From positions 1 to 64,000 of the forward strand of contig CAIYVX010000094.1 of NCBI GenBank assembly GCA_903929765.1: a DNA stretch of 64,000 bases, read 5' to 3'. The DNA is from an uncultured Planctomycetia bacterium. Its GTDB lineage: Bacteria > Planctomycetota > Phycisphaerae > FEN-1346 > JAACEH01. This document shows, one piece after another, positions 3,262 to 63,779 of this stretch. A program made the position numbers and the translations under genes. A model generated the notes under the pieces. It was not told the DNA's origin. It did not search any database and saw only the letters and a list, made by a program, of their open reading frames with translations. The stretch's first letter is position 1. Each line of letters opens with the position of its first letter.

Positions 3262-3405
3262 GCAGGCTTCAGACCTAAGGCTTCAGGCACAGAAGAAAAA
3301 GAAGAAAAAACAGCCCTTAATCCAAGGTTTATTCTTCATGGCCACGCTTCGCGTGGACCATGCCACCCACCGTTTGGGGTGGGCGGAGAAGAAACAACAA
3401 CGAAA
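3262..3405. repeat. Intergenic repeat block (TTCAGG and CATGGCCACG families)
   Basis: Contains the TTCAGACCTAAGGCTTCAGG element with an AAG-rich tail, then CATGGCCACG-CTTCGCGTGG-ACCATGCCACC, a hairpin family also found near 4588, 6552, 9034, 13803, 21589 and 47542. The block lies between dnaN and the DUF721 gene and pads that gene's open frame upstream. Confidence 0.75.
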
Positions 3406-4930: not shown

Positions 4931-5012
4931 AACGGCAGGCTTCAGACCTCAGGCTTTAGGCTTCAGGCGCAACAGAAGAAAAAGCAGAAACAGAAGCAGA
5001 AGAAACAACAGC
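4930..5012. repeat. Intergenic TTCAGG repeat with AAG-rich tail
   Basis: Tandem related words CTTCAGACCTCAGGCTTTAGGCTTCAGG followed by an AAG/AAC-rich linker, directly downstream of the dnaA stop codon. It is the same family as at 3268, 8953, 20132 and 29099. Confidence 0.7.
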
Positions 5013-14079: not shown

Positions 14080-14208
14080 CAAACCCTCACCCGGCCGCTA
14101 AAGCGGCCACCCTCCCCCAAGGGGGAGGGGTGAAGAAGCAACGGCAAAAGAAACAGCAACACCCTCACCCTACCCTCTCCCCTCAAGGGAGAGGGGTGAA
14201 AAAGCAGT
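14080..14208. repeat. CCCTCACC/GGGAGAGGGGTGA repeat pair
   Basis: Two copies of an element beginning ACCCTCACCC and ending GGGAGGGGTGAAGAAG, each with a CTCCCC/GGGGAG-type hairpin, separated by an AAG/AAC-rich linker. This is the family that is also embedded in prmC, the activase gene and the kinase gene. Confidence 0.8.
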
Positions 14209-14819: not shown

Positions 14820-14948
14820 TATAAGGTCACTTCCGCCCCTTCGGGGCTAAGAAGAAGAAAAAGGAAAAGAAGAAATATTTCGCGGCGACTCCAACCGGTG
14901 GCTTACGCCACCGGCTAAATACTTTCGCCCCTTCGGGGCTTGCCTTCC
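14820..14948. repeat. Repeat block with CCGGTGGCTTACGCCACCGG
   Basis: Two GCCCCTTCGGGGC hairpins (about 14835 and 14927) flank CCGGTGGC-TTAC-GCCACCGG near 14894. It lies upstream of the hypothetical gene and just past the tyrS stop. No gene is seen. Confidence 0.75.
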
Positions 14949-19770: not shown

Positions 19771-20781
19771 ATGCCCGACAGCTCTCCAACTTCCTGGACC
19801 ATATTGCGGCTGCTGGAGTGGACCCGCGATTTTTTTGCGAGCCACGGCATCGATGATGCGCGGCTGGAGGCGGAGTTGCTGCTGGGGCATGCGCTGGGGG
19901 CGAAGCGGATCGAGCTTTACACGCAGCACGGGCGAGTGGTGGGCGAGCCGGAGTTGGCGCGGTTCCGGGAGTTGGTGAAGCGGCGGGCGGCGCATGTGCC
20001 GACGCAATATCTGCTGGGCCAGGCCTGGTTTCGCAACCTGACGCTGAAGGTGACGCCGGCGGTGCTGATTCCGCGGCCGGAGACGGAGATTCTGGTGGAC
20101 GAGGCGTTGGAACTGCTCAAAAAGCAGTCTTCAGACCTCAGGCCTCAGGCTTCAGGCGCAGCAGAAAAAGCAACAGAAACAACACCCTCACCCTACCCTC
20201 TCCCCTCAAGGGAGAGGGGTGAAGAAGCAGCGGCAAAAAAAGAAACAACAAAGCGGCGCGTGCTGGATTTGTGTACGGGGAGCGGGTGCATTGCGATTGC
20301 GATAGCGGCGGAGTGCGCGGGGGCGCGGGTGGTGGGGACGGACGTGTCGGCGGCGGCTTTGGCGGTGGCGGCGGAGAATGCGGCAGCGGCGGGGGTGACG
20401 GAAAAAATCAGGTGGTTGCAGGGGGATTTGTTTGCGGCGCTGGAACAGTTGCCGGCGGAAGAGCGGCGCTTTGATTTGATTACGGCCAACCCGCCGTACA
20501 TTGGGGAAGGGGAGTTGGCGGGGTTGATGGCGGAGGTTCGAGATCACGAGCCGCGCGAGGCGCTGATTGCGGGGCCGACGGGGCTGGAGATAATCGAGCG
20601 GATTCTGGCGGGTGGTCCGGGGCATTTGTTGCCGGGCGGACACCTGCTGATGGAGATCGGGTTTGAGCAGGTGGCGGCGGTGCGGGCGCGAGTGGTGGCG
20701 GTGAAAGATTGGGAATGGGTGGGGAGCCGGAAGGATTTTGGGGGGCATGAGCGGGTGGTGAAACTGAGAATTAAAAATTAA
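19771..20781 (+). CDS. prmC: Release-factor glutamine methyltransferase with repeat insertion
   Basis: PrmC (HemK) methylates the GGQ glutamine of release factors. Seen: a helical N-terminal domain, IPRPETE near 105, SAM motif LDLCTGSGCIAIAIA, and the substrate motif NPPYIGEGE. At 336 residues it is about 45 longer than usual. The excess is a hydrophilic stretch at roughly residues 119-162 translated in frame from two intergenic repeat elements (TTCAGG and CCCTCACC families) between the IPRPETE strand and the SAM motif, a loop position. The rest is intact, so the enzyme may be functional. It follows the kinase gene after a repeat block. Confidence 0.93.
   Translation: MPDSSPTSWTILRLLEWTRDFFASHGIDDARLEAELLLGHALGAKRIELYTQHGRVVGEPELARFRELVKRRAAHVPTQYLLGQAWFRNLTLKVTPAVLIPRPETEILVDEALELLKKQSSDLRPQASGAAEKATETTPSPYPLPSRERGEEAAAKKETTKRRVLDLCTGSGCIAIAIAAECAGARVVGTDVSAAALAVAAENAAAAGVTEKIRWLQGDLFAALEQLPAEERRFDLITANPPYIGEGELAGLMAEVRDHEPREALIAGPTGLEIIERILAGGPGHLLPGGHLLMEIGFEQVAAVRARVVAVKDWEWVGSRKDFGGHERVVKLRIKN
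20128..20262 (+). repeat. Palindromic repeats embedded in frame in prmC
   Basis: Contains CTTCAGACCTCAGGCCTCAG, an AAG/AAC linker, then CCCTCACCCTACCCTCTCCC and GGGAGAGGGGTGAAGAAG. The whole is a multiple of three in the reading frame and stop-free; it encodes SSDLRPQASGAAEKA, SPYPLPSRERGEEAAAKKE and similar. The units are the same as in non-coding gaps at 3268, 8953 and 14160. Confidence 0.9.
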
Positions 20782-21479: not shown

Positions 21480-21866
21480 TAAAAAGTTAAAAGTAAAAAG
21501 AAGAAGAAACGGCGTCCCCCAGCAATGCGGGGGGCTTCAAAAGAAAAAGAAGAAACAACAACAGCTTCTATTCCAAACGTCGTTCATTCATGGCCCGTCT
21601 TCGCCGGACCAGGCCACCCACGGTTATTCTCATCCCACAACAACACCCTCTCCCTGAAGGGAGAGGGGTGACGCAATAACAGAAAAAACAGAAACGACAG
21701 TCCCGACATTTGAGAGGGCTTCAGCGAAACCCCTCACCCGGCCCGTTGGGCCACCCTCTCCCAAGGGAGAGGGGTAAAACAATAACGGCAAAACAGCAGA
21801 AGAAAAAGAAGAACACACCTTGCCCCAACAGCGGGGCCAAGGTGTGGCACCCACTTTTCATACCTG
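21480..21866. repeat. Intergenic repeat mosaic, about 390 bp
   Basis: No gene is seen. In order: a CCCCC/GGGGG element near 21517-21534, the CATGGCCCGTCTTCGCCGGACC hairpin near 21589, CCCTCTCCC...GGGAGAGGGGTGA near 21645-21671, a second such unit with GGCCCGTTGGGCC near 21730-21775, and CACACCTTGCCCC...GGGGCCAAGGTGTGG near 21812-21848, joined by AAG/AAC linkers. Confidence 0.8.
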
Positions 21867-21869
21867 ATT

Positions 21870-24800
21870 TTACACGCGGGCCGGGGCGCGGTGCGGCGAT
21901 GCGGCGGCGCGGAGGCGGCGGGCGTCGGCTTTTTGGCGGCACTGGTGCATGAAGGCTTCGAGGCGGAGCATTTCGGAGGCCTGTTCGAGGCCGTCGTAGG
22001 CGACTTTGAGGATGGGGAGGTCGTGGTCGGCGGAGAACTTGGTCAGGAGGGCGTTGACGATGGTGCCGGGCATGCAGTTGAAGGGGAGCAAGTTGACGAG
22101 GCCGACGCAATCGTGGTGGGCGTATTCGACGGCGCGGCCCATGGAGAGGATGGGTTCGCCGCGAATGGTTTCGTGGAGGTAGGCGCGGCCCATGGCGATG
22201 ACTTCGCTGGAGGGGATTTCGACGAAGAAGTCGCGGACGCTGCCGGCGAAGGGGGCGAGGACTTTGCGGCGCTCGCGCTTCTGGAAAATGTCGACCAGGA
22301 ATTCTTCGAAGACGCGTTTGAGGTTGCGGTCAACGCGGCCGTCTTCCAGGCGGCTCCAGGCGATGTAGTTGACCCATTCCTCGAAGGGAGGCAGGAAGGC
22401 CTCGCCACCGAGCTGCTCGATTTTGCGGATGATGAAGTTGTTGGTGAACTGGTTCTGGCGGACGAAGATTTCGCCGACGAGGCCGATGCGCGGGCGGGGG
22501 TGGGAATAGTCGGCGGGGATGGCGGCGAAGCGGCTACGGACCTGGCGGGCGATCTGGGCGGGCTGGCCGCCGGAGGCGACGTGGTCGCAGAGCAATTGGA
22601 GCGACTCGTTGTAAACGCGGTCGGTCTCGCCCTTGCTTGTTTCGTAGGGGCGGGTCTGGCGGAGAAGTTTTTGCATGGTGTCGACGAAGACGATGCCGGA
22701 CCAGGCGAGTTTGCGGAACTTCGTCCCGAGCATGCGGAGGTCCTGCTGATAGTCCTGGTCCTGGTCGAAGGTGACGATGGGGACATCGGTGAGGCCCATG
22801 TCGTCGAGGACGAGGCGCTGGAACTTGTTGTACTGGCCGAAGCGGCAAGGGCCGAAGGCGGTGGGCATGAAGAAGGCGGAATGTTTGGGGTCGAAGTCGG
22901 GCCGCTCGACCTGGCGGAGGATGTCGCCGGTGGTGATGATGCAGGGATAGCATTCCTTGCCGGAGGTGACGCGGCGGCCGAGTTCGATGGTGCGGGCGTC
23001 GGCCATGGGCATGGGGACGGCGTCGACGCCGCCGGCGCGCATGGCAGCGGCGATGGCGTTGCCGTGATCGTCCATGTAGGGGATGTAGAGTCGGCGGCGC
23101 TCCTGCTTGATGTTGTGGGGGATGGTGCCGGCGCGGACTTTGCGGAGGCCGTCGGGATGGAGGCGGCGCACGTTCTTGAGGCTGTCGAGGTAGGCTTCGC
23201 AACGGGTGATGGCGCCGACGTCGGCGGAGTGTTCGTCGACTTCGAGAGTGAGGCAGGGTTTGCCCTTTAGTTCACGCTCGAAGAATTTCATGATGAAGCT
23301 GTCAGGGCCGCAACCGAAGTTGGTGACGTAGACGGGGTAGAGGTTGGGATGGTCGGCGACGAGTCGGGCGGCGGCGAGGATTTTCTGGCCGTATTTCCAG
23401 TACATGTGGGGATAGTCGGCGGAAATATCCACGGTGTCCAGCGGGAGCATGTCCATGGGGATGGCGAGGGTGCCGAGGTCGCGGAGCTTGTCGGGGATGT
23501 TGAGGTTCAGGCCGGCGTCGCAGCCGTTGTAGGGGCGGCTGATGATGACGAGGGCGGGATCGTCGCCGAGGGAGTTGAGGATTTCCTGGCCGCGGCGGCG
23601 GAGGCGAGCGGCGAATTCGTCCTGGGCGGCGAAGGCGGCGTCGATGGCCAGGCGGCGGACCTTGGGGGTGACGCCCATGCTCTTGGCGACGGCGTCGAAG
23701 CGTTTGCGGACGGCGTCGCGACCGTGGGAAAAGTGGAGGATGGGCTGGAGGAGGCGCGTGTTGGGGAACTTGGTCAGGTCGAGGGCGGCGGAGATGAGGT
23801 AGGGCAAGGTCTGGACGTAGGGGCAGGCGTAAGTGTTGACGATATCTTCAGATGATTTTGGCAGATCGATGAGGCTGGGCAGGAAGAGGAAATCGACGCC
23901 TTTTTCGAGGCAGTTGAGGGCGTGGCCGTGGGCGACCTTGATGGGGTAGCAGGTTTCGGCGGCGACGGTTTCGAGTCCGGCGTTGATGATGGAGCGGTTG
24001 GTGTCGTCGGAGGGGACGGCTTCGAAGCCGAGGTTCTCGAAGAAGGCCCGCCACATGGGGAAATATTCGAAGAAGGGGGCGATGCGCGGGAGGCCGACGC
24101 GAAGTTTCTTGGCGTGGCCGGGAGATTTATTGGCCTCAGCCGTCACCCTCACCCTACCCTCTCCCCTCAAGGGAGAGGGGTGAAGAAGAAGACCCTCACC
24201 CGCCGCTAAAGCGGCACCCTCCCCCAAGGGAGAAGGGTTTAAAGCCCCCGTGCTCATCAACATTTCATTCCGCTCAACAAACAGGCGCGGGAGGTGTTCG
24301 CCGCGGCTTTTTTGTTTGGTTTCGTCGAACTTGCCGCAACGTGAGCCGTAGAAGAGTTTGCCCTGGCCTTTGATGTCGACGACGCGGACTTCGCACATGT
24401 TGGAGCAGGCTTTGCACTCGAAGCTGGAGCATTCGTACTGGCGGTCGCGGAGGTCGAAGCCGCGGAAACGGCTGGGGGACTTTTTGTCCCAGGCGTCGCG
24501 GGCGAGGAGGGCGGCGCCGATGGCGCCCATGATGTCGTGGTGCGGGGGGACGATGATGGGTTTGCCGGTGACTTTTTCGAAGGCGCTTTTTACGCCGCGA
24601 TTGTAGGCGGTGCCGCCCTGGAAGAAGATGCGCTGGCCGATACGGCGATCTTCGACGACGCGGTTCAGATAATTGTGAACGATGGAGTAGCAGAGTCCGG
24701 CGGCGAGGTCGTCGGTGGCGACGCCTTTCTGCTGGTTGTGGTTAACGTCGGTTTCGATGAAGACGGTGCAGCGTTCGCCCATGCAGGGAGGCTGGTCGGC

Positions 24801-26228
24801 GGCGAGGGCGAGGCGGTTGAAGTCGCCGTTCTTCAATTGGATGCCGAGGCGTTCGGATTGTTCTTCGATGAAGCTGCCGGTTCCGGCGGCGCAGACTTTG
24901 TTCATGGTGAAATCGACGACGGCGCCGTTTTCGAGGCTGACGTATTTGGAGTCCTGGCCGCCGATTTCGAAGATGGTATCGACTTCGGGGTCGAAGAAGG
25001 CGGCGGCGGTGGCGTGGGCGGTGATTTCGTTTTTGGCGAGGTCGGCCCCGATGAAGTCGCCGGTGAGGTAGCGGCCGCTGCCGGTGGTGCCGACGCCGCA
25101 GACGCGGACGCGGGCGGCAACTTCCTGGCCGCATTCGTAGAGGCCCTGGGTGACGGCTTCGAGCGGGCGGCCGGCGGTCATGAGGTAGCGGCGCGAGAGG
25201 ACGCGGCCTTGGGCGTCGATGGCGACGATGTTGGTGGAAATGGAGCCGACGTCAACGCCGATGTAGGCGTCGATCTTGGAACCGTTGGAGCCGAGGGCGG
25301 CGCGGTCGGCTTCGATGACGAGCGGGTACTTGTCGTCGACGAGCGGCTCGTTGCATTTGTGTTCTTCCTGCCGGTGGTCGGCGAGGTGGCGCGTGAGAGG
25401 TTCGAGGCCGGCGAAGGAGCGGAAGGCGTTTTGCTCGGCGGTGGCCAGGACGGCGCCGATGGCGCCCATCGAGGCGTGGTGCTTGGGGATGATGAGGGAA
25501 TCTTTGTCGAGTTCGAGGAGTTCGCGGAAGGCGCGGACCATGCCGGCGTTGGCGGCGACGCCGCCCTGGAAGGCGACCTTGGGGCGGAAGTCTTTGCCCT
25601 TGCCGATGACGGCTTTGAAGTTGCGGGCCATGGCGAAGCAGAGGCCGGCGACGATGTCGAAGTCGGGGCAACCTTCCTGCTGGAGGTGGATCATGTCGCT
25701 CTTGGCGAAGACGGAGCAGCGGCCGGCGATGCGCGGGGGGTGCTTGGACTGGAGGGCCATGGCCCCCCATTCGGTTTCGATGCTGATGCCGAGGCGCGAG
25801 GCCTGCTGGTCGAGGAAGGAGCCGGTTCCGGCGGCGCAGAGGGCGTTCATGGCGAAGTCGCGGATGCGGGTGCGGCCGGGGACGGCGTCGGGTTCGATGA
25901 GGATGAGCTTGGAGTCTTCGCCGCCGATTTCGATGATGGTGCGGACATCGCGGTAGAAATGGCCGGTGGCGGCGCCCTGGGCGACGACTTCGTTGACAAC
26001 GGGCAGGTCGAGAATGGCGGCGAGGAGCTTGGCTCCGCCGCCGGTGGCGGCAACGCCCTGGAGCGGCACGTTGGCCGGGACTTTGGCGAGAAGTTCTTTG
26101 AGGACTTCGCCGGCGCGCACGAGCGGCTGGCCGTGGTTGCGGGCGTAAACGTCGGCCAGGACGTTCAACTGGCCGTCCATGAGGACGCCCTTGGTGGCTA
26201 CGGAGCCGATGTCGATGCCGATGTACAT
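21870..26228 (-). CDS. Tandem 2-hydroxyacyl-CoA dehydratase activase fused to dehydratase-like domains
   Basis: 1452 residues. Two BadF/HgdC-type ASKHA ATPase domains: the first starts MYIGIDIGSVATKG, the second IGVDVGSISTNIVAID near residue 322. Each carries the iron-sulfur cysteine loop CAAGTGSF and a downstream C-x-F metal region. A DUF2229 domain and an HgdB-like dehydratase segment follow (ISRPYNGCDAG; CYPCIITTGDILRQ; FGPCRFGQYNKFQ). Known relatives use ATP to push low-potential electrons in anaerobes; the substrate is unknown. A repeat-derived insertion lies between the halves (24145-24262). GAGGGGGA precedes the ATG by 10 bases. Isolated; no separate dehydratase subunits are nearby. 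Confidence 0.9.
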   Translation of the reverse strand: MYIGIDIGSVATKGVLMDGQLNVLADVYARNHGQPLVRAGEVLKELLAKVPANVPLQGVAATGGGAKLLAAILDLPVVNEVVAQGAATGHFYRDVRTIIEIGGEDSKLILIEPDAVPGRTRIRDFAMNALCAAGTGSFLDQQASRLGISIETEWGAMALQSKHPPRIAGRCSVFAKSDMIHLQQEGCPDFDIVAGLCFAMARNFKAVIGKGKDFRPKVAFQGGVAANAGMVRAFRELLELDKDSLIIPKHHASMGAIGAVLATAEQNAFRSFAGLEPLTRHLADHRQEEHKCNEPLVDDKYPLVIEADRAALGSNGSKIDAYIGVDVGSISTNIVAIDAQGRVLSRRYLMTAGRPLEAVTQGLYECGQEVAARVRVCGVGTTGSGRYLTGDFIGADLAKNEITAHATAAAFFDPEVDTIFEIGGQDSKYVSLENGAVVDFTMNKVCAAGTGSFIEEQSERLGIQLKNGDFNRLALAADQPPCMGERCTVFIETDVNHNQQKGVATDDLAAGLCYSIVHNYLNRVVEDRRIGQRIFFQGGTAYNRGVKSAFEKVTGKPIIVPPHHDIMGAIGAALLARDAWDKKSPSRFRGFDLRDRQYECSSFECKACSNMCEVRVVDIKGQGKLFYGSRCGKFDETKQKSRGEHLPRLFVERNEMLMSTGALNPSPLGEGAALAAGEGLLLHPSPLRGEGRVRVTAEANKSPGHAKKLRVGLPRIAPFFEYFPMWRAFFENLGFEAVPSDDTNRSIINAGLETVAAETCYPIKVAHGHALNCLEKGVDFLFLPSLIDLPKSSEDIVNTYACPYVQTLPYLISAALDLTKFPNTRLLQPILHFSHGRDAVRKRFDAVAKSMGVTPKVRRLAIDAAFAAQDEFAARLRRRGQEILNSLGDDPALVIISRPYNGCDAGLNLNIPDKLRDLGTLAIPMDMLPLDTVDISADYPHMYWKYGQKILAAARLVADHPNLYPVYVTNFGCGPDSFIMKFFERELKGKPCLTLEVDEHSADVGAITRCEAYLDSLKNVRRLHPDGLRKVRAGTIPHNIKQERRRLYIPYMDDHGNAIAAAMRAGGVDAVPMPMADARTIELGRRVTSGKECYPCIITTGDILRQVERPDFDPKHSAFFMPTAFGPCRFGQYNKFQRLVLDDMGLTDVPIVTFDQDQDYQQDLRMLGTKFRKLAWSGIVFVDTMQKLLRQTRPYETSKGETDRVYNESLQLLCDHVASGGQPAQIARQVRSRFAAIPADYSHPRPRIGLVGEIFVRQNQFTNNFIIRKIEQLGGEAFLPPFEEWVNYIAWSRLEDGRVDRNLKRVFEEFLVDIFQKRERRKVLAPFAGSVRDFFVEIPSSEVIAMGRAYLHETIRGEPILSMGRAVEYAHHDCVGLVNLLPFNCMPGTIVNALLTKFSADHDLPILKVAYDGLEQASEMLRLEAFMHQCRQKADARRLRAAASPHRAPARV
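24145..24262 (-). repeat. Palindromic repeats embedded in frame in the activase gene
   Basis: Two CCCTCACC/GGGAGAGGGGTGA units in the coding region, translated on the minus strand as LNPSPLGEGAALAAGEGLL and HPSPLRGEGRVRV, between the second activase domain's cysteine-rich tail and the DUF2229 domain, an interdomain linker. The frame stays open. Confidence 0.9.
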
Positions 26229-36706: not shown

Positions 36707-37582
36707 ATGAAAGGCCAGTACGAGGTGGCCCGGATTCCGCCGAAGATGCTGCGCGGAGGGCTGGTGCCGGAGGGGTTTGAGTTGGACGGCGTGGAGTATC
36801 GGCTGGAGAAGCATCTGAAGGCGGATTTTTTTGCGGCGACGGGGCGGTATGTTGATGGGTCTGGGCGGCGCGTTTGTTTGAAACATTTTCACACGGAAAG
36901 CTGGCTGGGGATTCCGCTGGGCTGGGCGGGACGGTACATGTGCCGGCGGGAGATGGGGTTTTATCGGCATCTGGCGGGAGTGGAGGGCGTGCCGGCTCTG
37001 GTGGGTCAGGTGGGCGAAAGCGGGATGGTGCATGAGTGGGTGGCGGGGTGCGATCTCCTGGATTTTGGGCGGGAGACGGAAGAATTAAAAATTAAAAATG
37101 CAAAATTAAAAATTAACGACGAGAAACAGCCAAAAAGCGAAGAAACGGCACCCTCACCCTACCCTCCCCCAAGGGGGAGGGGTGAAGAAGAAACAGCACC
37201 CGTGCCGGATGATTTTTTTGATCGGCTGGAGGAGTTGGTGGGGCGGCTGCACGAGCGCGGGGTGGCTTATGTGGATTTGAACAAGCCGGATAATGTGCTG
37301 GTGGGGGAGGACGGGCGGCCGTACCTGGTGGACTTTCAGATTTCGTATCGCTGCCCGGCGGCGCGGTGGCGGATTTTCGGGCGGGCGTTCTTCCGGCAAC
37401 TGGCGGGAGAGGATTTGTACCACGTTCGGAAATTGAAGCGGAAGTTCCGGCGCGACCAGATGACGGTGGCGGAAATCGAGCAGAGTTACGAGCGGTCGTG
37501 GGTGCTGAGTGTGCACCGGAAGTTCGCTCATCCGTTTCAGCAGGTGCGGCGGTGGGTGCTGACGCGGTTGGGGGCGAGATGA
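36707..37582 (+). CDS. Kdo/RIO-like small-molecule kinase with repeat insertion
   Basis: Protein-kinase-like fold of the lipopolysaccharide-kinase type. KADFFAATGRYVDGSGRRVCLKHFH holds the beta3 lysine, the catalytic loop is YVDLNKPDNVLV (equivalent of HRDLxxxN) and the metal loop is DFQIS in place of DFG. From the ATG at 36707 it has 291 residues, about 42 of them (roughly 125-166) translated from AT-rich and CCCTCACC repeats inserted between the hinge (HEWVAGCDLLDF) and the helix before the catalytic loop. The ATG at 36638 is possible but would translate a palindromic repeat. Substrate unknown; a lipid or sugar acceptor is plausible. Confidence 0.8.
   Translation: MKGQYEVARIPPKMLRGGLVPEGFELDGVEYRLEKHLKADFFAATGRYVDGSGRRVCLKHFHTESWLGIPLGWAGRYMCRREMGFYRHLAGVEGVPALVGQVGESGMVHEWVAGCDLLDFGRETEELKIKNAKLKINDEKQPKSEETAPSPYPPPRGRGEEETAPVPDDFFDRLEELVGRLHERGVAYVDLNKPDNVLVGEDGRPYLVDFQISYRCPAARWRIFGRAFFRQLAGEDLYHVRKLKRKFRRDQMTVAEIEQSYERSWVLSVHRKFAHPFQQVRRWVLTRLGAR
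37078..37206 (+). repeat. AT-rich and CCCTCACC repeats embedded in frame in the kinase gene
   Basis: Coding bases carry ATTAAAAATT words, an AAG/AAC linker and CCCTCACCCTACCCTCCCCC with GGGGGAGGGGTGAAGAAG. Translated as ELKIKNAKLKINDEKQPKSE and SPYPPPRGRGEEE; no stop codon and no frame change. Confidence 0.88.
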
Positions 37583-51909: not shown

Positions 51910-52266
51910 GGGGGCGATTGGTTTCGACGGGGTTAAGGAGGCCGGCGCCGGCGTGGCGGGGTTGTGAGGAGGCCCCGTAAAACACCTCACACCAACACAA
52001 ATGCCAACAATGGCATGCTGCTGGCCGCCTAGAGATAGGTAGCCCGTCGCCGGAGCAGTGCCCGTGGGCCCCGGAGCGACGTCACTAGCGGGCTGGCCGG
52101 TCAAGTCCGTCTTCGGCGCGATCGACGAGAACCAGCGAAGGCTGGGTGGCCAAAGGGCGGGTTGTCTTGCCTGCGGCGACCGACAGTTGCAAAAGGACAA
52201 CTATCCACGTAGAAGGCCCGGCTGACTGGCATCCGGACGCGGGTTCGATTCCCGCCGCCTCCACCA
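51910..52266 (+). ncRNA. ssrA: Transfer-messenger RNA (tmRNA)
   Basis: The 5' end GGGGGCGATTGGTTTCGACG and 3' end GCGGGTTCGATTCCCGC...ACCA pair into the tRNA-like acceptor (7 bp: GGGGGCG with CGCCTCC, one G-U) and T arm; CCA is encoded. The tag frame reads T-N-T-N-A-N-N-G-M-L-L-A-A-stop (stop at 52030-52032), with the LAA end expected of proteolysis tags; the resume codon is upstream of 51991 and not fixed by inspection. Pseudoknot-like inverted stretches follow. tmRNA rescues stalled ribosomes with SmpB. Its 3' end is a frequent integration site. Confidence 0.95.
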
Positions 52267-52298
52267 TTTTCTTCGCTGCAACTGGCTCTCTCTGTAGA

Positions 52299-52330
52299 CG
52301 AAGCCCGTGGCCAACCAGCCACGGGCTTCG
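52299..52330 (+). terminator. Probable ssrA terminator hairpin
   Basis: Perfect 13-bp arms CGAAGCCCGTGGC (52299-52311) and GCCACGGGCTTCG (52318-52330) with loop CAACCA, followed by CTCATTTCGG and a T-rich run near 52345-52352. It lies 33 bases after the tmRNA end. Confidence 0.8.
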
Positions 52331-52638
52331 CTCATTTCGGCCTTGTTTTATAGGTTTTTCGACGTAGTAGCCTCCCCGCAACCCGGACTCGGTTTTCAGA
52401 CTCACCTACCCCGTTTGGGCCTGTTTTTTCTCTCTTATGGAGCATCCTCTCTGTTGTCCGTGGACTCGCCCCCAGCGCGTCCGGGTTTTTATAACGGGAG
52501 CATTGACGGCCACTTACGATTTTTGGCCGAGGGGCCGGAAAAAAGTTTAATGAGCAGTAGAATGGAGTAGCAAACGGCGCTGTAATCAAATACCGGCAGC
52601 GCCAAGTAGAGTGGACGCCGCCCGCCAAGTAATATTTG
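52331..52638. other. Non-coding junction region with weak hairpin
   Basis: No convincing gene; three short open frames lack ribosome sites. A GGCGCTG...CAGCGCC hairpin (52576-52603, 14-base loop) lies beyond the stop of the PLD-type gene and might terminate that operon, but no U-tract follows on the minus strand. No duplicate of the tmRNA 3' end was seen in the window. Confidence 0.45.
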
Positions 52639-54144
52639 TTAGGATGCTGGCATGGATATCTCCGCAGGGCAGAAGCCCCGCTTTGCCGAAACATTGCCCT
52701 GGTCGCGTCTTACAGAAACAAGCCAGTCTCGGAGTCGCTCTGTGGCGGGCGTACACTGGGTGAGCGACTCGCAATGCATTGAAGACTCGTCGGTCGGCCC
52801 TGCGAGTACAATTGCGGTGCTCCCGGCGTAGAGGCAGATCTTATTGTCGCCCTGCTGTTCGAATAAGCAGGGACCCGAAGATGCTTCTTTGGTAAAGGCA
52901 GTACGCGCGGCCCGATCTGCATGCACAACCAGGCGCTGGGAATACGGCCATTTACCGCACCACCTTGCGGCAAGTTGGCCGTCCAACTCACCAACCGTGG
53001 GATTGCGGAAAAACGCCGCATCGGCGTTGGAAATGACATGCTCCACATACTCGGACAGGGCTTTTATTGCATCACTGTCATCGACGCGAATCCCCGCTTC
53101 AACACCAGAGGTCAAGCCGTGTGCAGCGTCCAGGTTGGCCGAAAAAACGACCCCCACGTCCCTGTCGGCAATTATCACCTTAGCATGGTTTCGGAGATCA
53201 CCGTGAATTGCAACTCCCATGTCTGCTGCGACTAGAAGATCCGACATCTGGTCCGGCCAAGCATTCCTCTGCCGGACTAGCAACCGCACTCTCACCCCGC
53301 GTTTAACCGCACGGTGTAAATGGTCAAAAATCAAGGAGGGCTCTTTGCGCATTCCAGCCACGCTGTAGGTCGCGAGCGTGAGTTCTTGCTTGGCGGAATC
53401 AGCTACCTCACGTATGGCGTCAAGAAGCATGGTCTGGCCGCGGCCGTTTGTCCACACAAAGCGTGTTGGCGGCGTCTGGGACGTTGCCGGGCGTACGGGC
53501 GACTCTGCAACTGCACGCTCGGATACGATGTATTTCATTCCAGGAGGAATCTCCCACGTACATCCGCCGTACCACAATTCGATGAACAATCCTGCAACTT
53601 GGCGTACTTGATCAGGATCACGGATCAGGACGTCAGCTTCGTTGGTCCATTCGAGGCCGTTGGTCACAAAATTCGCGGACCCGACGATGGCCACGGTATC
53701 ATCCACCACGGCGAACTTTGCGTGGCATTCCTCATGGCCCCGCACGTACACGCCACCGGACGTAAGCCGCTCGAAGTTCTTCCTCCGCTCTTCCGGGGCC
53801 GTGTGTTCGGACTCCTCATATTCCTCGAGCCCACGGCGGAGGGACTTCTCATCCAAGGCGGTGATCAGGTAAACGCCGCCCCTGAGACGCTCGGCGGCCG
53901 CCAGCATCTCTCTGATAATCTCCTCGTCTCCGAGCATGAATGATGCCACAAAGACTCGTTTCGTAGCCCCCCGTATCATCGACACCAGCGAGTCCCTTAC
54001 GGGAGAGCCGCTACCCCTGTAGGTTCCAAGGAATCGGACTCTCTGGCCTTTGTCTTCGGGCCAGACAAGAGGCTGAGGCTGTTGCCCGTTGTGAAGGAAA
54101 AAACCCCCCTCAACCCGATTCTCAGCCAGTTTGAGTTTTTTCAT
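52639..54144 (-). CDS. Double-HKD phospholipase-D-family nuclease
   Basis: 501 residues, no signal peptide. Two catalytic HKD modules are visible: HAKFAVVDD...GSANF near 143 and HAKVIIADRD...FSANLD near 318; each N-terminal half has a TKRVFVASFMLGDEEI or QELTLATYSVAGM strand. PLD-family members include Nuc nucleases, BfiI and the effectors DrmC and MkoB. The N-terminus MKKLKLAENRVEGG and the C-terminal 120 residues are of unknown fold. It overlaps the wHTH-protein gene by 4 bases (ATGA), so the two are translationally coupled; it is the last gene of the helicase operon. Confidence 0.88.
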   Translation of the reverse strand: MKKLKLAENRVEGGFFLHNGQQPQPLVWPEDKGQRVRFLGTYRGSGSPVRDSLVSMIRGATKRVFVASFMLGDEEIIREMLAAAERLRGGVYLITALDEKSLRRGLEEYEESEHTAPEERRKNFERLTSGGVYVRGHEECHAKFAVVDDTVAIVGSANFVTNGLEWTNEADVLIRDPDQVRQVAGLFIELWYGGCTWEIPPGMKYIVSERAVAESPVRPATSQTPPTRFVWTNGRGQTMLLDAIREVADSAKQELTLATYSVAGMRKEPSLIFDHLHRAVKRGVRVRLLVRQRNAWPDQMSDLLVAADMGVAIHGDLRNHAKVIIADRDVGVVFSANLDAAHGLTSGVEAGIRVDDSDAIKALSEYVEHVISNADAAFFRNPTVGELDGQLAARWCGKWPYSQRLVVHADRAARTAFTKEASSGPCLFEQQGDNKICLYAGSTAIVLAGPTDESSMHCESLTQCTPATERLRDWLVSVRRDQGNVSAKRGFCPAEISMPAS

Positions 54145-55349
54145 GGCGTGAAATCCATTGGCTCTCGCAAATCATACAGCGGCTTAAAAAGCCGCATCTC
54201 CCATAAACGGTCACATAGTACCTCCCTCGTAACCCCAGAAGATTGGAGGGCCGATGGGCCATTGGCCAAGTACGCACTCAAAGCCGCATCGACTGCGAAC
54301 AAGTCCTTTGCGCCTTTGTCCAGCGGCTTCAATCGCAGCGGCAGGGCAAACTCGAATTCATCCTCCACACGCACCTTCAGTCCCATGAGGCCGCGAAGAA
54401 GATGGTTCCGGCGTAGCCCCATTGCCCTGTATTCGGTGATGTCACCCTGAAGAGATGATTCGCCGTCCCATGACGTCGTGATCCCGTAACTTTTGGTCAA
54501 CTCTCCGATTATTCCTTCTGCCAGGTGTGACAGCCTGGACCGGTACCCCGTCACCATAGCCTTAAGTTGTGGAACAGGCAGTTTAATCTCGGTCGTGTCG
54601 GAACCATTGGACTCGGCACCCGCCGATGCACTGTGGGCTTTCTTTCGGCGCTCGCCAGAGATGACAAGCTGCCACCCGTCACCCTTCTCAACGGGCAGCA
54701 AGGCGCTACAGGCATATGTGGGGCACACGTTCTGCGTTATCACCATCTTGTCATCGAATTCACAGACGCTCTGTGCGGCCTGGCCATACAGTCTCTTGGC
54801 GGCAAACACTTCTTGCAAGATCTCCCCACGACTTCTACCCCGCACGGTGTTGGGCCAGGGACAACTCGGGCCCGGCTTGAGGTTCGTTAATTGCCTTATG
54901 AGGGGAACAGCCTTTTCTATGACAACGGCCTCCTCTGTTTCCGGGAACCACAGGACATCAAGTCGCTCAGGGCGCCGCACTGGGAGTCGGCCCGATTGCA
55001 ACGCTCTGGTACATAGCTCGACGTCAGGCTCAAATACGTCCGCTTCCTCCTCATACGCAAGTTTCCTCTGTTTCAAGCATTCCAGCAACCACCTGCCCAG
55101 TTCAGCGGGAATTGAAGCGATTTCCTGGAGTTCGGCGGCACGGAGTCTTTTGAGAGACAAGAGCGACTGGGCCACGAATCGCTCCATTACGCTCATGCCT
55201 TCGTAGGTCTCTATGGTGGCGGTGACGCCCACAAGAACCATCATTGGCAACCATGCCTGTACCAAATGAAGAGCCGCGCCGTCTCCGTCGGCCCAATCCT
55301 GCAGCACCGTCACAAGCAAGCGTTCAGAGTTATTCGTCGAGTGTGCCAT
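54141..55349 (-). CDS. Predicted winged-helix protein of the helicase-PLD operon
   Basis: 402 residues from the ATG at 55349 (MAHSTNNSERLLVTVLQDWA), which overlaps the helicase end by 20 bases and has a G-rich ribosome site. I recognise no family. A winged-helix-like segment is suggested by LRAAELQEIASIPAELGRWLLECLKQRKLAYEEE (about 65-100). The rest is alpha/beta with a long helical tail and carries CPTYACSALLP. Its position between a helicase and a PLD nuclease, with overlaps on both sides, implies a fixed complex. Role could be sensing, recruitment or adaptor. Confidence 0.7.
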   Translation of the reverse strand: MAHSTNNSERLLVTVLQDWADGDGAALHLVQAWLPMMVLVGVTATIETYEGMSVMERFVAQSLLSLKRLRAAELQEIASIPAELGRWLLECLKQRKLAYEEEADVFEPDVELCTRALQSGRLPVRRPERLDVLWFPETEEAVVIEKAVPLIRQLTNLKPGPSCPWPNTVRGRSRGEILQEVFAAKRLYGQAAQSVCEFDDKMVITQNVCPTYACSALLPVEKGDGWQLVISGERRKKAHSASAGAESNGSDTTEIKLPVPQLKAMVTGYRSRLSHLAEGIIGELTKSYGITTSWDGESSLQGDITEYRAMGLRRNHLLRGLMGLKVRVEDEFEFALPLRLKPLDKGAKDLFAVDAALSAYLANGPSALQSSGVTREVLCDRLWEMRLFKPLYDLREPMDFTP

Positions 55350-58300
55350 GCTTGGCCCCCCCAAACTGTCGCACGACGCGCATGGTATCCGGATGACTTT
55401 CAAACAGCTCATTCAGGTGACGGTAGAACTGCATAGCCCCATCATTCGAGCATAATTTACCTAGTAATTCTTTCTGGCCAACCAAAATCAGAGCGCGATG
55501 AGCCCTGGTGCAAGCCACATTCACTCGGCGTAAGTCCTGCAGCCATTGCCCAAAACGTGGGCTTACCGTCTTGCCGGCAGTGCGACAGAAGCTGAGGAAG
55601 ACAATATCGCTCTCCTGGCCTTGAATGCGATCTATGGCATCAATAACCGAGAATCGTAAACGCTGAAAACGACTCCTGCCGTGACGATCAAGCACCTTGT
55701 CTCGAATCAATCTCGCCTGCGCCTTATAGAAGGCAAGAATGCTCACGGTCAGGATACGTGAGCCAGACTCCGAGAGTTCCCTGTTCAAGACTTCACATGC
55801 CTCGATAATCCAGTGAGCTTCCGTCCGGTTGACAAAGCCATTACGAATTGACTCGTCACGCGCCTTGACGCCTAAGGCCGAGGTGTCAAGAAAGGTGATT
55901 GGCGTTGGAAACGTCGGCGTGGAGAGCGGCACCAACCCCTGTTGGCGCATTTCCTCCGCTGGTGGCGTGCAGTAGTCGCCACCGTAGATTGGTTGACTGA
56001 CTATTCTGGCGATGGACTCGACCATCCGGCGTTGCTCCACAAGCCTCAGTTTCAGAGAATCTGGACACGAAACGACAATACGCTCGAAAAGACTTCTTAT
56101 CAGATTGTCGCGCATGGTCCTTAGAAGTTCGCGGGTGGGATTTTCGACTTCCTGGCCAAGGTAGTCAATCCCGTCCCTGAAAGCTTGCCTGTAGGTTGAG
56201 GCCCACAGGCCGGCATCGAGAAGTGTCGTGGCGACCTCCGCTACGTTCTGCCGCCTGAAAAGGTGCAATTCCTCATCCTCTTCCCAAAGATTCCCGAGTT
56301 CATCGACCGCCGCTTCGAGCGACACTTGCCGCCGTTCCGCCAGGTCCAGCGCGGACAGGGCGTGGATGAAGTGTTCGTCACTCTGCTCGACATAGGGCGG
56401 CAGTTGGTGTTCATCTCCGACCAGTATCCATCGCTTGGCCCGTACGGCACCAATGAGAAACTCGGAGTCGGTAACTCGGCTCGCTTCATCGACGATGAGC
56501 GTATCGACAACAACATCCCTAAGTTCCTGGTTGCCAGCTATGCCCGTGGTAGTACAGCAGAAGAGGTTCGTCACCGCCAGTAGGTCTCGTCGCAGGCCAT
56601 CCAGGTTTTCGCCGTCGCTCGTGACCTCAGCAACGATTTCGTCAAAGCGACTGCGGAGTCTTCCGTAAGCATCGAGACGGGAGTGCCGGTCAGTGAATTC
56701 GGTCAGGCTGCTGGCCACCGATTCAGGTTCAAGACCGCGGTCGCCAAGAGCGGGGTGTCCGCTACAAGTTCTCTTTGCCTCGCTCTCTGCCGACATTGCC
56801 TTAGCCAGTCGCTCCGCGGCTTCGACGGAGGCCCTCGTCGCCGCCGAGACCTCCTCCCGCAGGACGGTCAATCGCTCTTCTGCTGCCGTGTCATTCTTTC
56901 TGAGTGGTCCTAGCTGCCCCCCCAGTTGCTGCAACTGCCTTGCGATGCCGTCTCGCTGCCGGCCAATTCTCCCAAGTTCCCCCCGGTTGAACCAGCCAAG
57001 TACGCGAGTGCCCACACCCGCCGTCTGTGACTTGGCCGCAAGTGTCGATTTGACCTCGGCAAGCCCCTGGCGGAGCTCCGCGATGCCCGTTTCAGCCGCT
57101 TGGATTTCTTTTGCCAGCTGTCGCCGCAATTCATTCAGGGAAGGCTCGTCCGCGGCCCACTGGCTCTGGGCGTTTTCTGTGCGATGGTCTGCCTCGGCCC
57201 TGACCTGAGCCGCAGACCTAGTCTCGGATTGGCAGGCGTGCAATGGCTTCAGCAATTCTACAGCACTCTGAATACGTGCTTGCTCCTGCTGCCACCGGCT
57301 ACTGTTCTCCGAATCGTGTCGCTGAGCACGTTCAAGGAACGGCTCGATGATCTGTGATGGCGCGAACTTCCTCACGTCATCCGCTATCCGAGTATCATCC
57401 CAGCTAAGGCGGAGCGCTCTGACCCCCTCGCGCGCACCTATTCGCCGTAACACCTCATCAACAGCGACATGCGTGGGAGCCGCAAGCAGAATCCGCTCAC
57501 CTCGAGCGATTAGCTGCTGAACAAGCTCGCAAATTACGGTCGTCTTGCCTGTACCTGGCGGTCCCTGAATGCAGAACGCGTGGGGAGTGGCCAGTGCTCC
57601 GGCAACAGCGGCCCGCTGCCTGGCATTCAAGGGGGGGCCACCATTGTTAAGGTCGCAAAAAAAGCTCGGGATCGGGGGCGCCGGAGCACTAGGCAGATCA
57701 GCTGGGCAACACAGGAGAGTGGCCAAATCGGGCCAGTATCCCTGCACTTGTTCATTAAGGAGGTCTTGAACGGCCTTCTGGTGCGCCCACCAGTTAAACC
57801 GCGAGATCACATCAACCTGGATTTCGGTGCCGTGGTTGAAATCGGTGGCAGACAGGTCCACTTCAATAAGCACCGAGCGACCTGTGAAATTGCACGAGAG
57901 AACCTTTGCCCTACAAGCATGCTTCTGGTTGGCCTCGCGAATTTCGACCAACGATCCCTCTTCGAGGGAGCCTTTAACTACCGTGGCTTCAGCCTGAAGT
58001 TGCAGGTTCGGCGGCCCTGCTTCGTCTTCCCCATTGCCATCGCCTAGTTGGCTCTCTGCTTTATCCGAAGCCGAGACCACCGCCTGAAAAGAGTGTTGTT
58101 CGCAATCGCTTCGTAGCTTCAGAAGGTCCATCATCACGCGAAGGGCGGAGTATTGCTTGCGGACGACGGTGTGAAGCAAGGAACGGTCTCGCACGGCTAC
58201 GTCCGGAGTACCCCGATCAAGTTCCTTTCGGACTTGGCGAAGAGCGTCTTCGTGCTTTTTGCGCAGCACACCCAATCGTTGCCTAAGGGATCTCGCTGCG

Positions 58301-58845
58301 TCATCCGCTTCGCGGAGCGACTGGAGGCAACCGCGATAATCGGCGTCCAGCTCCTCCGGGTCACAAGTCACCTCATCCCAAATCGGATGGAATCGTACCC
58401 ATTGAGGGCGAAAGGAAGGTTGCCTGGTAGGGATATTTTGTTGCTGAAGACTGGCAAACACCAAAACAATACGGCGAGAGTTCTTCCCCAACTGAGGCCG
58501 GACATTCATTCGCCATCGTGCGCCCAGCAGGCACCCATTCCTTTGCCCCTTTCTTATCTGGATGCACACACCGTTCGCCAGATCCCCAGTGACGGAACCG
58601 AGAACTTCTGTTGTGCCTATTCCCACCTTGTTAGCAATGTCAGCGAGGCCGTCGGGAAAATAACTGATGTCGATACCGTTACGGAGGTAAATGGGGTCAG
58701 CGGTTGAAAGATTTGCCAGGTCTTCTTCGGCCGTGGTAAGCGCATCGGCGGAAAGTTCTGGCGATGCCTCCGCAAGCCGTCTCTCGACCCAGGCTCTGGG
58801 AGTTCTGATAGGCTGGATCGATTCGTCTTCTGTCACTGAAGTCAT
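55330..58845 (-). CDS. SF1 COG1112/UPF1-like helicase
   Basis: 1171 residues from the ATG at 58845 (AGAGG upstream). An N-terminal unknown region (1-300) and a beta-barrel insertion are followed by Walker A GPPGTGKTTV near 427, motif Ia APTHVAVDEV, a long coiled coil (about 500-690, interrupted), Walker B VDEASRV near 783 with GDEHQLPPY, and motifs V-VI (IDRIQGQESD; VACTRAHRALI near 1110). This is the UPF1/DNA2/SETX-like group; COG1112 helicases are the motor of Mokosh. A likely nucleic-acid translocase. It has no nuclease domain of its own; the PLD gene downstream supplies one. Confidence 0.92.
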   Translation of the reverse strand: MTSVTEDESIQPIRTPRAWVERRLAEASPELSADALTTAEEDLANLSTADPIYLRNGIDISYFPDGLADIANKVGIGTTEVLGSVTGDLANGVCIQIRKGQRNGCLLGARWRMNVRPQLGKNSRRIVLVFASLQQQNIPTRQPSFRPQWVRFHPIWDEVTCDPEELDADYRGCLQSLREADDAARSLRQRLGVLRKKHEDALRQVRKELDRGTPDVAVRDRSLLHTVVRKQYSALRVMMDLLKLRSDCEQHSFQAVVSASDKAESQLGDGNGEDEAGPPNLQLQAEATVVKGSLEEGSLVEIREANQKHACRAKVLSCNFTGRSVLIEVDLSATDFNHGTEIQVDVISRFNWWAHQKAVQDLLNEQVQGYWPDLATLLCCPADLPSAPAPPIPSFFCDLNNGGPPLNARQRAAVAGALATPHAFCIQGPPGTGKTTVICELVQQLIARGERILLAAPTHVAVDEVLRRIGAREGVRALRLSWDDTRIADDVRKFAPSQIIEPFLERAQRHDSENSSRWQQEQARIQSAVELLKPLHACQSETRSAAQVRAEADHRTENAQSQWAADEPSLNELRRQLAKEIQAAETGIAELRQGLAEVKSTLAAKSQTAGVGTRVLGWFNRGELGRIGRQRDGIARQLQQLGGQLGPLRKNDTAAEERLTVLREEVSAATRASVEAAERLAKAMSAESEAKRTCSGHPALGDRGLEPESVASSLTEFTDRHSRLDAYGRLRSRFDEIVAEVTSDGENLDGLRRDLLAVTNLFCCTTTGIAGNQELRDVVVDTLIVDEASRVTDSEFLIGAVRAKRWILVGDEHQLPPYVEQSDEHFIHALSALDLAERRQVSLEAAVDELGNLWEEDEELHLFRRQNVAEVATTLLDAGLWASTYRQAFRDGIDYLGQEVENPTRELLRTMRDNLIRSLFERIVVSCPDSLKLRLVEQRRMVESIARIVSQPIYGGDYCTPPAEEMRQQGLVPLSTPTFPTPITFLDTSALGVKARDESIRNGFVNRTEAHWIIEACEVLNRELSESGSRILTVSILAFYKAQARLIRDKVLDRHGRSRFQRLRFSVIDAIDRIQGQESDIVFLSFCRTAGKTVSPRFGQWLQDLRRVNVACTRAHRALILVGQKELLGKLCSNDGAMQFYRHLNELFESHPDTMRVVRQFGGAKHGTLDE

Positions 58846-58913
58846 TCCGCGCCTCTGGCTGCTCCCATTCTGTAGGGGCCTGAATGCGCCACCCACCGGA
58901 TTACTTCAAAATT

Positions 58914-61701: not shown

Positions 61702-61989
61702 TCACGCCGCATTGACCGGAAGGTGAAGTCGCCCCTTGGACTGCCACCTGACGCTGGGCAGGCCAATGTGATAGTCGCTGTCGATGCCGACCACGACGTA
61801 CTCCGGAGCAAGCAGGATCGCACGTTTCACGGCGGCCACCTTGATGCGAGAGAGGAGGCGAGCCGCCGCCACAGCGCCCTGAGCGGCAACGAGATGCCTG
61901 AGCCGGGAAGCCATCTGTGCTCGCCGCCATGCCGCCTCAGCGGCTTCGACACGGGCATCACTAAGAATCTGACAGAATGTCTTTCGCAT
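61702..61989 (-). CDS. Small helical protein, first gene of the sigma-54 unit
   Basis: 95 residues. Amino-terminal two-thirds are helical and basic/Ala-rich (DARVEAAEAAWRRAQMASRLRHLVAAQ, KVAAVKRAILL); the C-terminal third EYVVVGIDSDYHIGLPSVRWQSKGRLHLP is beta-like. AAGGGG is close to the ATG. No family is recognised. It is the first gene downstream of the -24/-12 promoter (about 37 bases from the likely start site), so its expression should require the divergent sigma-54 activator. Confidence 0.65.
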   Translation of the reverse strand: MRKTFCQILSDARVEAAEAAWRRAQMASRLRHLVAAQGAVAAARLLSRIKVAAVKRAILLAPEYVVVGIDSDYHIGLPSVRWQSKGRLHLPVNAA

Positions 61990-62037
61990 CTGTGGCCCCT
62001 TTCGTTGTGTTCATTTGCTTCTGGGTTTCTAACAAAA

Positions 62038-62053
62038 GCAAACTGCGTGCCAC
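62038..62053 (-). promoter_or_regulatory. Sigma-54 (-24/-12) promoter
   Basis: On the minus strand the sequence is GTGGCACGCAGTTTGC: TGGCACG, four bases, TTGC, with GG and GC 12 apart, an exact match to the RpoN consensus. Transcription would start near 62026 and run into the gene starting at 61989. It lies between the two divergent genes. Confidence 0.88.
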
Positions 62054-62061
62054 ATGTCCTG

Positions 62062-62136
62062 AAACACACGCATGCCATGTAACGGCCACTTTCTTACAGA
62101 TTTTGGCGATCATAATAGGACGCTGTGCGTTTGTTT
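62062..62136. promoter_or_regulatory. Candidate upstream activator sites
   Basis: AAACACACGCA (62062-62072) and TGCGTTTGTTT (62126-62136) are inverted copies with 10 of 11 positions matching, centred about 46 and 110 bases from the -12 element on its upstream side, a spacing fit for enhancer-binding-protein sites. Confidence 0.4.
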
Positions 62137-62148
62137 TCGAACTGGCGA

Positions 62149-62176
62149 TTGACAACGAACGGTATTCGATTACAAT
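62149..62176 (+). promoter_or_regulatory. Sigma-70-type promoter of the activator gene, near-leaderless
   Basis: TTGACA (62149-62154), 16-base spacer, TACAAT (62171-62176). The predicted transcript start, about 7 bases on, falls at the ATG at 62184, so the mRNA would be leaderless or nearly so. No Shine-Dalgarno precedes that ATG. Confidence 0.65.
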
Positions 62177-62183
62177 AGACCGC

Positions 62184-63779
62184 ATGGCTACCAATACGCT
62201 GTGCAGTTGGATTGGGATGACGGACTTGGCGCATATGGGCGGCAAGAAGTCAGGAAGTCCGCTGCTCGCTGTTGCCGAATACATCAAGCCCAGACGCATA
62301 GTGGTGCTTTGGCCCGACACGGCCAAGGTTCCAGCGTCCTACGCCACCGAATACGCGGCATGGCTGCGTAGTTGCTTGGCGAAGAAGGGGGCAACGGTCC
62401 AAGTGGATGTGGAGGTAATGGAGGATTCCGAAGGGCGACTCATGGATTTCGCATGGGCCTATGGTGGAATAGATGGGGCGATCAACAGACTGCGCGATGC
62501 GAAGAGCATCGCCGTAAATGCCAGTAGCGGCACCTGGGTTATGCAATCAGCCTGGGTGGTGTATGCCAAGGCCGTTGGCGACATCGACGTGCAGTTGTAT
62601 GTCAGCAGCGAAGAGCGCGGCGTCCAGGAACTCCGATTGCCCCCGGGGTTGAGAATAGACCTTCGCCGCATCCTGGCCCTGACGGATGACGACCCACTCG
62701 TTGAACGGTACATTCGTGGTGAGCTCTGGCAGCGTTCACCAGAACTGGCCGATTTCATTGGCGACTCGCCGGCAATGAGCCGTGTTAAGTACATGGCCGA
62801 GGCTGTTGCCCGCTTCAGAATCCCCGTTCTAATCACAGGAGACCCTGGAAGCGGGAAGAGTCTCCTCGCCAGAATAATCCACCGCTTGAGCGGTGCTTCG
62901 GGTGGGTTCGTGCCAGTGGACTGTGGACAACTCTATGCGGAGGCAGAAGTCCACAGTGTCTTCGGCTGGGAAAAAGGGGCGTTCACAGGAGCTGACGCAC
63001 CAAACCCGGGAATCATCAGTAAAGCTAAGGATGGCACCCTATTCCTGGATGAGATTGCCAACGCTCCCGCCGCGATTCAGGCAGGTCTCCTGCGGTTTCT
63101 TCAGGAAGGCAAGTATCGGCCGCTGAAATCTTTGGAGGAGATGGACAGCACGGCCAGAGTGATCGCGGCCACCAACACGGATCTGGATGAGGCGGTGAAA
63201 GAAAGGAAGTTTCGGCAGGATCTTCATGACCGCCTTCGCGCGGTCATGATTCATATTCCGCCACTTCAGGACCGCGGGGATGACGTAATATCATTGGCAC
63301 ACTTAAAGCTCTCGGAGTTCCAGAAGAAACAGACGCAGGCTATGCAGGCAAAAGGCGTGAGGGAAAAGCGGCTTTTGGCAGAAACAGAAGACGTTTTTCG
63401 CAGGCACGACTGGCCGGGGAATGTTCGGGAACTCGAGCACCTTATTGCGCGGCTCGTCATCTTCAGTGCTCCAGAAAAAGAGGATATCACGGCAGATGAC
63501 GTGCGCCGCCAGCTTCTTCCGTCCCGTCGAAAGGATGGCATCCTGGGTCGTGAACTGAGTCCTGGTTTCAGGCTCGATGACGTCATCCACGAGGTTCAGT
63601 CGCACTACGTGACGCGGGTGGACGAGGAAACCGGAGGCAACAAGGCAGAAATGGCTAGGCGATTAGGTTTCGGTGAGAGCCGGACCCCCCTGCTAACCAT
63701 ATTGAAGAGTTTGGAACGCGCTGGGCTTGCCCCATTACGAGACGACTCTGATGGGGCAAGGCCAAGTGTTTCTCCCTGA
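62184..63779 (+). CDS. RtcR-like sigma-54 activator with CARF-like sensor domain
   Basis: 531 residues. N-terminal CARF/RtcR-like domain (1-175): the opening TLCSWIGMTDL, and VNASSGTWVMQSAW near 112, where CARF proteins have their ligand loop. AAA+ domain: GDPGSGKS near 219, the sigma-54 contact loop GAFTGA near 266, LFLDEIANAP, R finger region. C-terminal Fis-type helix-turn-helix (EMARRLGFGESRTPLLTILK). The family reads damaged or cyclised RNA ends in E. coli (RtcR). Here the target is the divergent operon at 61989-59022, not rtcBA. The ATG at 62184 keeps the first CARF strand. Confidence 0.9.
   Translation: MATNTLCSWIGMTDLAHMGGKKSGSPLLAVAEYIKPRRIVVLWPDTAKVPASYATEYAAWLRSCLAKKGATVQVDVEVMEDSEGRLMDFAWAYGGIDGAINRLRDAKSIAVNASSGTWVMQSAWVVYAKAVGDIDVQLYVSSEERGVQELRLPPGLRIDLRRILALTDDDPLVERYIRGELWQRSPELADFIGDSPAMSRVKYMAEAVARFRIPVLITGDPGSGKSLLARIIHRLSGASGGFVPVDCGQLYAEAEVHSVFGWEKGAFTGADAPNPGIISKAKDGTLFLDEIANAPAAIQAGLLRFLQEGKYRPLKSLEEMDSTARVIAATNTDLDEAVKERKFRQDLHDRLRAVMIHIPPLQDRGDDVISLAHLKLSEFQKKQTQAMQAKGVREKRLLAETEDVFRRHDWPGNVRELEHLIARLVIFSAPEKEDITADDVRRQLLPSRRKDGILGRELSPGFRLDDVIHEVQSHYVTRVDEETGGNKAEMARRLGFGESRTPLLTILKSLERAGLAPLRDDSDGARPSVSP

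Follow-up and report, generated by a model that had tools for sequence, protein, structure and literature searches.

In-frame insertion of the TM palindrome and heptamer arrays into prmC and other conserved genes of a Planctomycetia genome, in a single reading frame and in an orientation that follows GC skew

The insertion of palindromes into genes is a rare documented path by which non-coding DNA enters proteins, and it has been described mainly for Rickettsia. Both Rickettsia and Wolbachia carry in-frame palindromic elements (PMC3767692), and in-frame REPs were reported in Opitutus terrae, Thauera, R. conorii and others, where they reach up to 43–82 residues in clusters (PMC3733652). Two further classes of repeat resemble the elements described here. 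One class is the heptameric intergenic repeats, described as 7-nt units in intergenic DNA (PMC4692102, PMC4679880). The other is the G/C-rich intrastrand-triplex motif TM, which Holder et al. listed in 2015 for E. coli (PMC4666352). The E. coli copies of TM are always intergenic and without strand bias, and no association with mobile elements was found (PMC4666352).

The stretch analysed here, referred to as the window, comprises 64,000 nucleotides from an uncultured Planctomycetia bacterium. It holds the only full-length copy of prmC found in the 116 contigs of a genome that is 96% complete. The encoded protein has two Pfam domains, PrmC_N (aa 14–83) and a methyltransferase domain (from aa 159), and a composite insert is located between its IPRPETE...LLKK and VLDLCTGSG segments. 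The insert consists, in this order, of a TCAGGCx heptamer array, an A-rich and T-poor linker, a 36-nt palindrome and a second linker that is again A-rich and T-poor. The features concerned are as follows.

19771–20781, + strand: prmC, release-factor glutamine methyltransferase with the insert, open frame of 336 aa
20128–20262, + strand: composite insert in the hinge between the PrmC domains, about 45 codons long and predicted to be disordered
20125–20157, + strand: TCAGGCx heptamer array, family HepB, read as SSDLRPQASG
20158–20186, + strand: A-rich, T-poor linker of the CAGCAGAAAAAGCAACAGAAACAACA type
20187–20222, + strand: palindrome CTCACCCTACCCTCTCCCCTCAAGGGAGAGGGGTGA, which matches the TM motif on the complementary strand, read as SPYPLPSRERG
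20223–20255, + strand: second A-rich, T-poor linker, read as EEAAAKKETTK
14164–14199, + strand: intergenic copy of the exact TM palindrome
4933–4968, + strand: intergenic copy of the TCAGGCx heptamer array

According to a first-pass annotation, two repeat families of the non-coding gaps are translated within prmC without a stop. Both families indeed recur in intergenic gaps of the window, and all 135 nt of 20128–20262 are open in the prmC frame. Gaps with the TCAGGCx heptamer lie near 3263, 4936 and 8956, and variants of the TM palindrome are present near 21650, 21755 and 29215.

A search of the whole genome (3.83 Mb, 116 contigs) returned 135 copies of the palindrome (76 + 59) at up to three mismatches, 58 of which are exact. 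A reversed-pattern control in the same genome returned 0 copies; the recurrence of the palindrome is therefore not due to chance. The complement of the palindrome reads CCCTCTCCC-TTGAG-GGGAGAGGG-TA-GGGTGAGGG. When the complement of 20187–20222 was compared, together with its flanking bases, with Table 1 of PMC4666352, the three blocks that define TM were all found, namely CCCTCNCCC, a loop, GGGNGAGGG, a short loop and GGGTGAGGG. The many near-identical copies per genome that characterise TM are found as well. What the first-pass annotation had treated as a nameless repeat family is thus a genuine repeat, and judged by its sequence it is the known TM motif. The palindrome in prmC and the E. coli copy CCCTCTCCCTTGAGGGAGAGGGTTAGGGTGAGGGT are complementary save for small differences in both loops. 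Unlike the E. coli set, the palindrome here is fused to heptamer arrays and linkers. In addition, the exclusively intergenic position and the lack of strand bias, which describe the E. coli copies and lie outside the TM sequence definition, do not hold here, as intragenic copies exist and 105 of 108 copies are co-oriented with the GC skew (vide infra). Among 61 genomes (this one and its relatives), the exact 18-mer was detected in six, with the present genome far ahead at 117 copies. A variant with one extra base in the short loop, CTCACCCTAA, is present in other genomes and common in one of them (52 copies). Inspection by eye of 30 loci in two motif-bearing genomes, G030 and G004, revealed no convincing in-frame insertion in a gene.

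The likeness to the Rickettsia palindromic elements would be one of insertion behaviour. Those elements, too, are found both in intergenic DNA and in frame within diverse conserved genes, at exposed sites and with the frame kept (PMC3767692, PMC3733652). Insertion without loss of frame was observed here for PrmC, a BcrAD activase, LpxB and a kinase-like gene, and an exposed, loop-like site of the peptide for the PrmC model only. However, the Rickettsia unit measures 100–150 bp, whereas a short palindrome within a composite is seen here; the host lineage is different, and the polarity of orientation sets the present elements apart. The parallel with Rickettsia that had been drawn from prmC holds for this behaviour, but an occurrence in an unrelated lineage is not without precedent, since in-frame REPs outside Rickettsia have already been published (PMC3733652). 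The GTAG/CGTC REPs are likewise palindromes in frame inside known genes (PMC3733652). Their end tag is absent here, where GTAG is found only between the stem and the third block of the complement; other families are involved, and no tie of the palindrome to a RAYT gene was found among the Y1 genes checked. With the heptameric intergenic repeats as described, the 7-nt units are shared; those of the present genome differ in being parts of composites that are also translated in silico in the gene frame (KLKIKNEKLK, DLRPQASG).

The effect of the insert on PrmC was assessed by comparison with homologues and by modelling. The hinge from E106 to G170 is 63 aa long; in 37 homologues spread over many phyla it spans 20–44 aa, with a median of 25. 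Using phmmer, it was found that residues 120–162 are unmatched by E. coli PrmC (1T43), which has two residues at that place. The claim that about 44 residues had been added agrees with the E. coli comparison (43 against 2), but less so with G001, the nearest relative available and a member of the same family. The net gain over G001 is small because its PrmC has a 51-aa hinge of its own, the sequence of which is unrelated to the insert. Linkers in the same class are usually 20–22 aa, and longer within the same order. It is possible that the hinge was already long in the ancestor. Taken together, the long hinges of G001 and of the order indicate that the insert occupies a tolerant hinge whose length is possibly in part older. 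The repeats themselves are absent from the PrmC of the relatives aligned. An AlphaFold2 model of PrmC gave a mean pLDDT of 91.3, with both domains above 94 apart from the first residues, and with residues 122–160 at 51–61 and without secondary structure. The NPPY motif, which is invariant in the alignment, and the SAM motifs are intact in the insert-bearing protein. With both domains and these motifs preserved, PrmC with the insert probably still works, and the peptide would be tolerated rather than functional.

Although prmC had been singled out as the insertion site, and is a real one, it is one of many, and two more are present in the window.

21873–26228, − strand: BcrAD_BadFG / DUF2229 activase gene with the second in-frame insertion, the elements lying opposite to the gene orientation
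24138–24248, − strand: insertion in this gene, GALNPSPLGEGAALAAGEGLLLHPSPLRGEGRVRVT, with TM at 24148–24183 and a TM variant at 24195–24241
36707–37579, + strand: conserved kinase-like gene (named from the appearance of its sequence) with the third in-frame insertion
37067–37192, + strand: insertion in the kinase-like gene, with AATTAAA heptamers read as ELKIKNAKLKIN
37153–37185, + strand: TM variant in this insertion, read as APSPYPPPRGRGEE

The insertion in the BcrAD activase amounts to about 36 aa and is absent in five relatives (G001–G004 and G007), and that in the kinase-like gene amounts to about 33 aa and is absent in G001–G007. No Pfam family was assigned to the kinase-like gene at E 0.01. 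Outside the window, LpxB has an in-frame insertion of about 43 aa, which is lacking in G001 at 71–72% identity. For all three genes, the empty sites in relatives are clean at about 71–76% identity. The AATTAAA heptamer array is also in frame in both LpxB and the kinase-like gene, where it is read as KLKIKNEKLK. In a survey of gene insertions using a home-made gene caller, 26 of 134 full palindromes were located inside gene calls; this survey covered 1.85 of the 3.83 Mb, on contigs chosen partly for known copies, and its densities may be overestimated. Pfam domains were recognised on both sides of a copy in a squalene-hopene cyclase, a double GNAT protein, a GH42/GLMA-like protein and AddB. The insertions in genes other than prmC would likewise be situated in loops. 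A broader tally, in which a match to any repeat sufficed, gave 70 genes; it includes chance matches of short 16-mers and was excluded from the evidence.

The palindrome can be read through in two of the three frames of its own strand (SPYPLPSRERG and HPTLSPQGRGV) and in one frame of the opposite strand (HPSPLRGEGRV). In genes on the same strand, all 22 copies in gene calls use the SPYPLPSRERG frame and none uses the other open one. Such a result could arise from circularity if the gene caller had been trained on peptide-bearing genes. This was checked with a test based on the flanks only, which disregarded each element together with 75 nt to either side and used a scoring model trained without element neighbourhoods: the same frame was obtained for 13 of 13 copies. 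For copies between separate genes, i.e., with a stop between the coding flanks, the frames split 6:4 (Fisher p = 0.002). Among intergenic copies, the frame used in genes is open in 62% and the other frame in 55%. A single frame inside genes, with both frames open in intergenic copies, points to either a survival filter at the protein level or a fixed phase of insertion, of which the filtering of surviving insertions is the simpler reading. The composites were also considered as unusually stop-free sequences, for which the difference was weak (1.52 of six frames open, compared with 1.34 in shuffles).

The orientation of the repeats follows the sign of the local GC skew. The skew was computed over 67 skew domains in 1.85 Mb with the elements masked or skipped, which excludes the circular explanation that the elements themselves were counted in it. 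Agreement was found for 105 of 108 TM copies, 99 of 103 arrays of heptamer A, 67 of 71 of heptamer B and 41 of 52 of a third heptamer family, and the T-poor linker and other short repeats also track the sign. Counted by skew domain, TM is 44:0 in agreement, and 71 of 76 copies obey the rule after thinning to 5 kb. Genes, on the other hand, are unbiased (438 of 912). The intragenic copies agree without exception (25/25); one orientation rule for intragenic and intergenic copies means that one process is most likely responsible for both. Transcription does not account for the skew, since it is equal in genes on the two strands (0.17 and 0.19). The skew reaches 0.2–0.3 in many blocks, and 16 or more switches of its sign were counted along the 1.85 Mb, with no scaffold (N) gaps in the element-bearing contigs that could cause them. 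Within the window it is about +0.2 over 1–40 kb and near 0 beyond 40 kb. In 400 kb of G001, the skew is weaker and repeats are few. This is not a simple two-replichore pattern, and we infer a replication-strand polarity in a rearranged chromosome.

Taking these observations together, we consider it quite likely that the repeats spread in a skew-oriented manner, mostly between genes, and that in-frame insertions in loops survive because they are tolerated. The TM palindrome, several heptamer arrays and the A-rich linkers would multiply in the genome and insert in one fixed orientation with respect to the strand marked by the local GC skew, which is most likely that of replication. The majority of insertions would fall between genes. 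Inside a gene, an insertion would survive only if its length preserves the frame, if the palindrome is read in an open frame that is tolerated (SPYPLPSRERGEE from the element strand, HPSPLRGEGRVRV from the opposite one) and if it lies in a surface loop. The composite in PrmC would occupy the hinge between the domains, forming a disordered loop some 43 residues long, and leave both domains and the motifs intact. A broader form of this proposal is held more tentatively: replication-polarised insertion may spread several unrelated repeat families in one orientation through a mosaic of strong GC-skew domains, and conserved genes may in this way receive stop-free, disordered peptide modules, of which selection would permit a single frame.

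The use of one frame to the exclusion of another open one implies some selection on the peptide, and the sister genome G001 also has a long PrmC hinge. Both could be taken to mean that the insert was recruited, either as a charged disordered hinge or as triplex-forming DNA or RNA that tunes PrmC, and is kept by positive selection. This is improbable, as the same peptide is found in the unrelated LpxB, kinase-like protein, BcrAD activase and cyclase, which argues for tolerance and not for a role specific to PrmC, and as the PrmC of relatives lacks the insert. More than 40 residues inserted in a core gene might also indicate that prmC is decaying after damage by repeats, with release-factor methylation lost or taken over by another enzyme. 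However, this is the sole full-length prmC in a 96% complete genome, its frame is intact, the invariant motifs are kept with both domains modelled at pLDDT >94, and the same repeats are present in several other intact conserved genes, all of which makes decay highly improbable. An artefact of assembly or binning, in which misassembly stitched repeats into genes, deserves attention in a draft genome of 116 contigs, as repeats often cause misassembly. We regard it as extremely improbable, because the insertions affect many independent genes, each with the frame preserved and with differing linkers and unique flanks, because the element-bearing contigs contain no N gaps, and because 22 of 22 copies in one frame would be unexpected from misassembly.

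A further proposal concerns the spreading step only and is compatible with tolerated, skew-oriented insertion. It holds that an HUH transposase of the Y1/RAYT type, acting on the lagging-strand template, moves the repeats. The genome has eight Y1_Tnp matches, and one Y1 gene, on contig C74, is flanked by small hairpins. IS608 and ISDra2 of the IS200/IS605 family are described as targeting the lagging-strand template (PMC6006769), and targeting of this kind would yield a strand polarity. However, heptamer arrays and linkers, which are not REP-like, show the same polarity, and the Y1 genes checked have no TM copy beside them, except that a variant copy lies at a distance of 0.9 kb from a weak Y1 match. 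A Y1/RAYT origin of the spread is possible but rather unlikely.

In a limited literature search, TM inside genes and composite TM-heptamer insertions appeared to be new, as did the exclusive use of a single frame and the skew-locked orientation of several unrelated families, and earlier reports of these features may exist. Compared with the Rickettsia elements, the motif is a different and widespread one, intergenic in E. coli and now found in several conserved genes at once. Two testable regularities emerge: a single frame is permitted, and the repeats keep a set orientation with respect to strand composition. The second of these suggests that small repeats enter by way of replication, a question that also concerns REP-like elements.

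Several minor observations were made alongside. Other short repeats are apparently translated in many genes as recurring peptides (GMGVSPMSPTGVPPV, HGQDARAT and LAPAxPGLQSVAPG), for example at C82:71181-75023, C84:9792-11336 and C13:63875-67285. The PrmC hinge of another member of the class (G024) contains NPLPLDGGGSGGGV, which resembles a different translated palindrome. On contig C74 (L064, positions 1–900), the Y1 transposase gene has small G/C hairpins of other repeat families on both sides, in a REPtron-like arrangement. Within the window, 51910–58896 contains a tmRNA gene and, after it, a pair of genes similar to the Mokosh defence system, with an MkoA-like helicase and a PLD nuclease like MkoB/DrmC; this low-skew and repeat-free stretch is likely a tmRNA-linked island. 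An RtcR-like CARF-AAA-HTH regulator is encoded at 61977–63776, and the Acido-Lenti-1 small RNA (Rfam) is found at 14895–14940.
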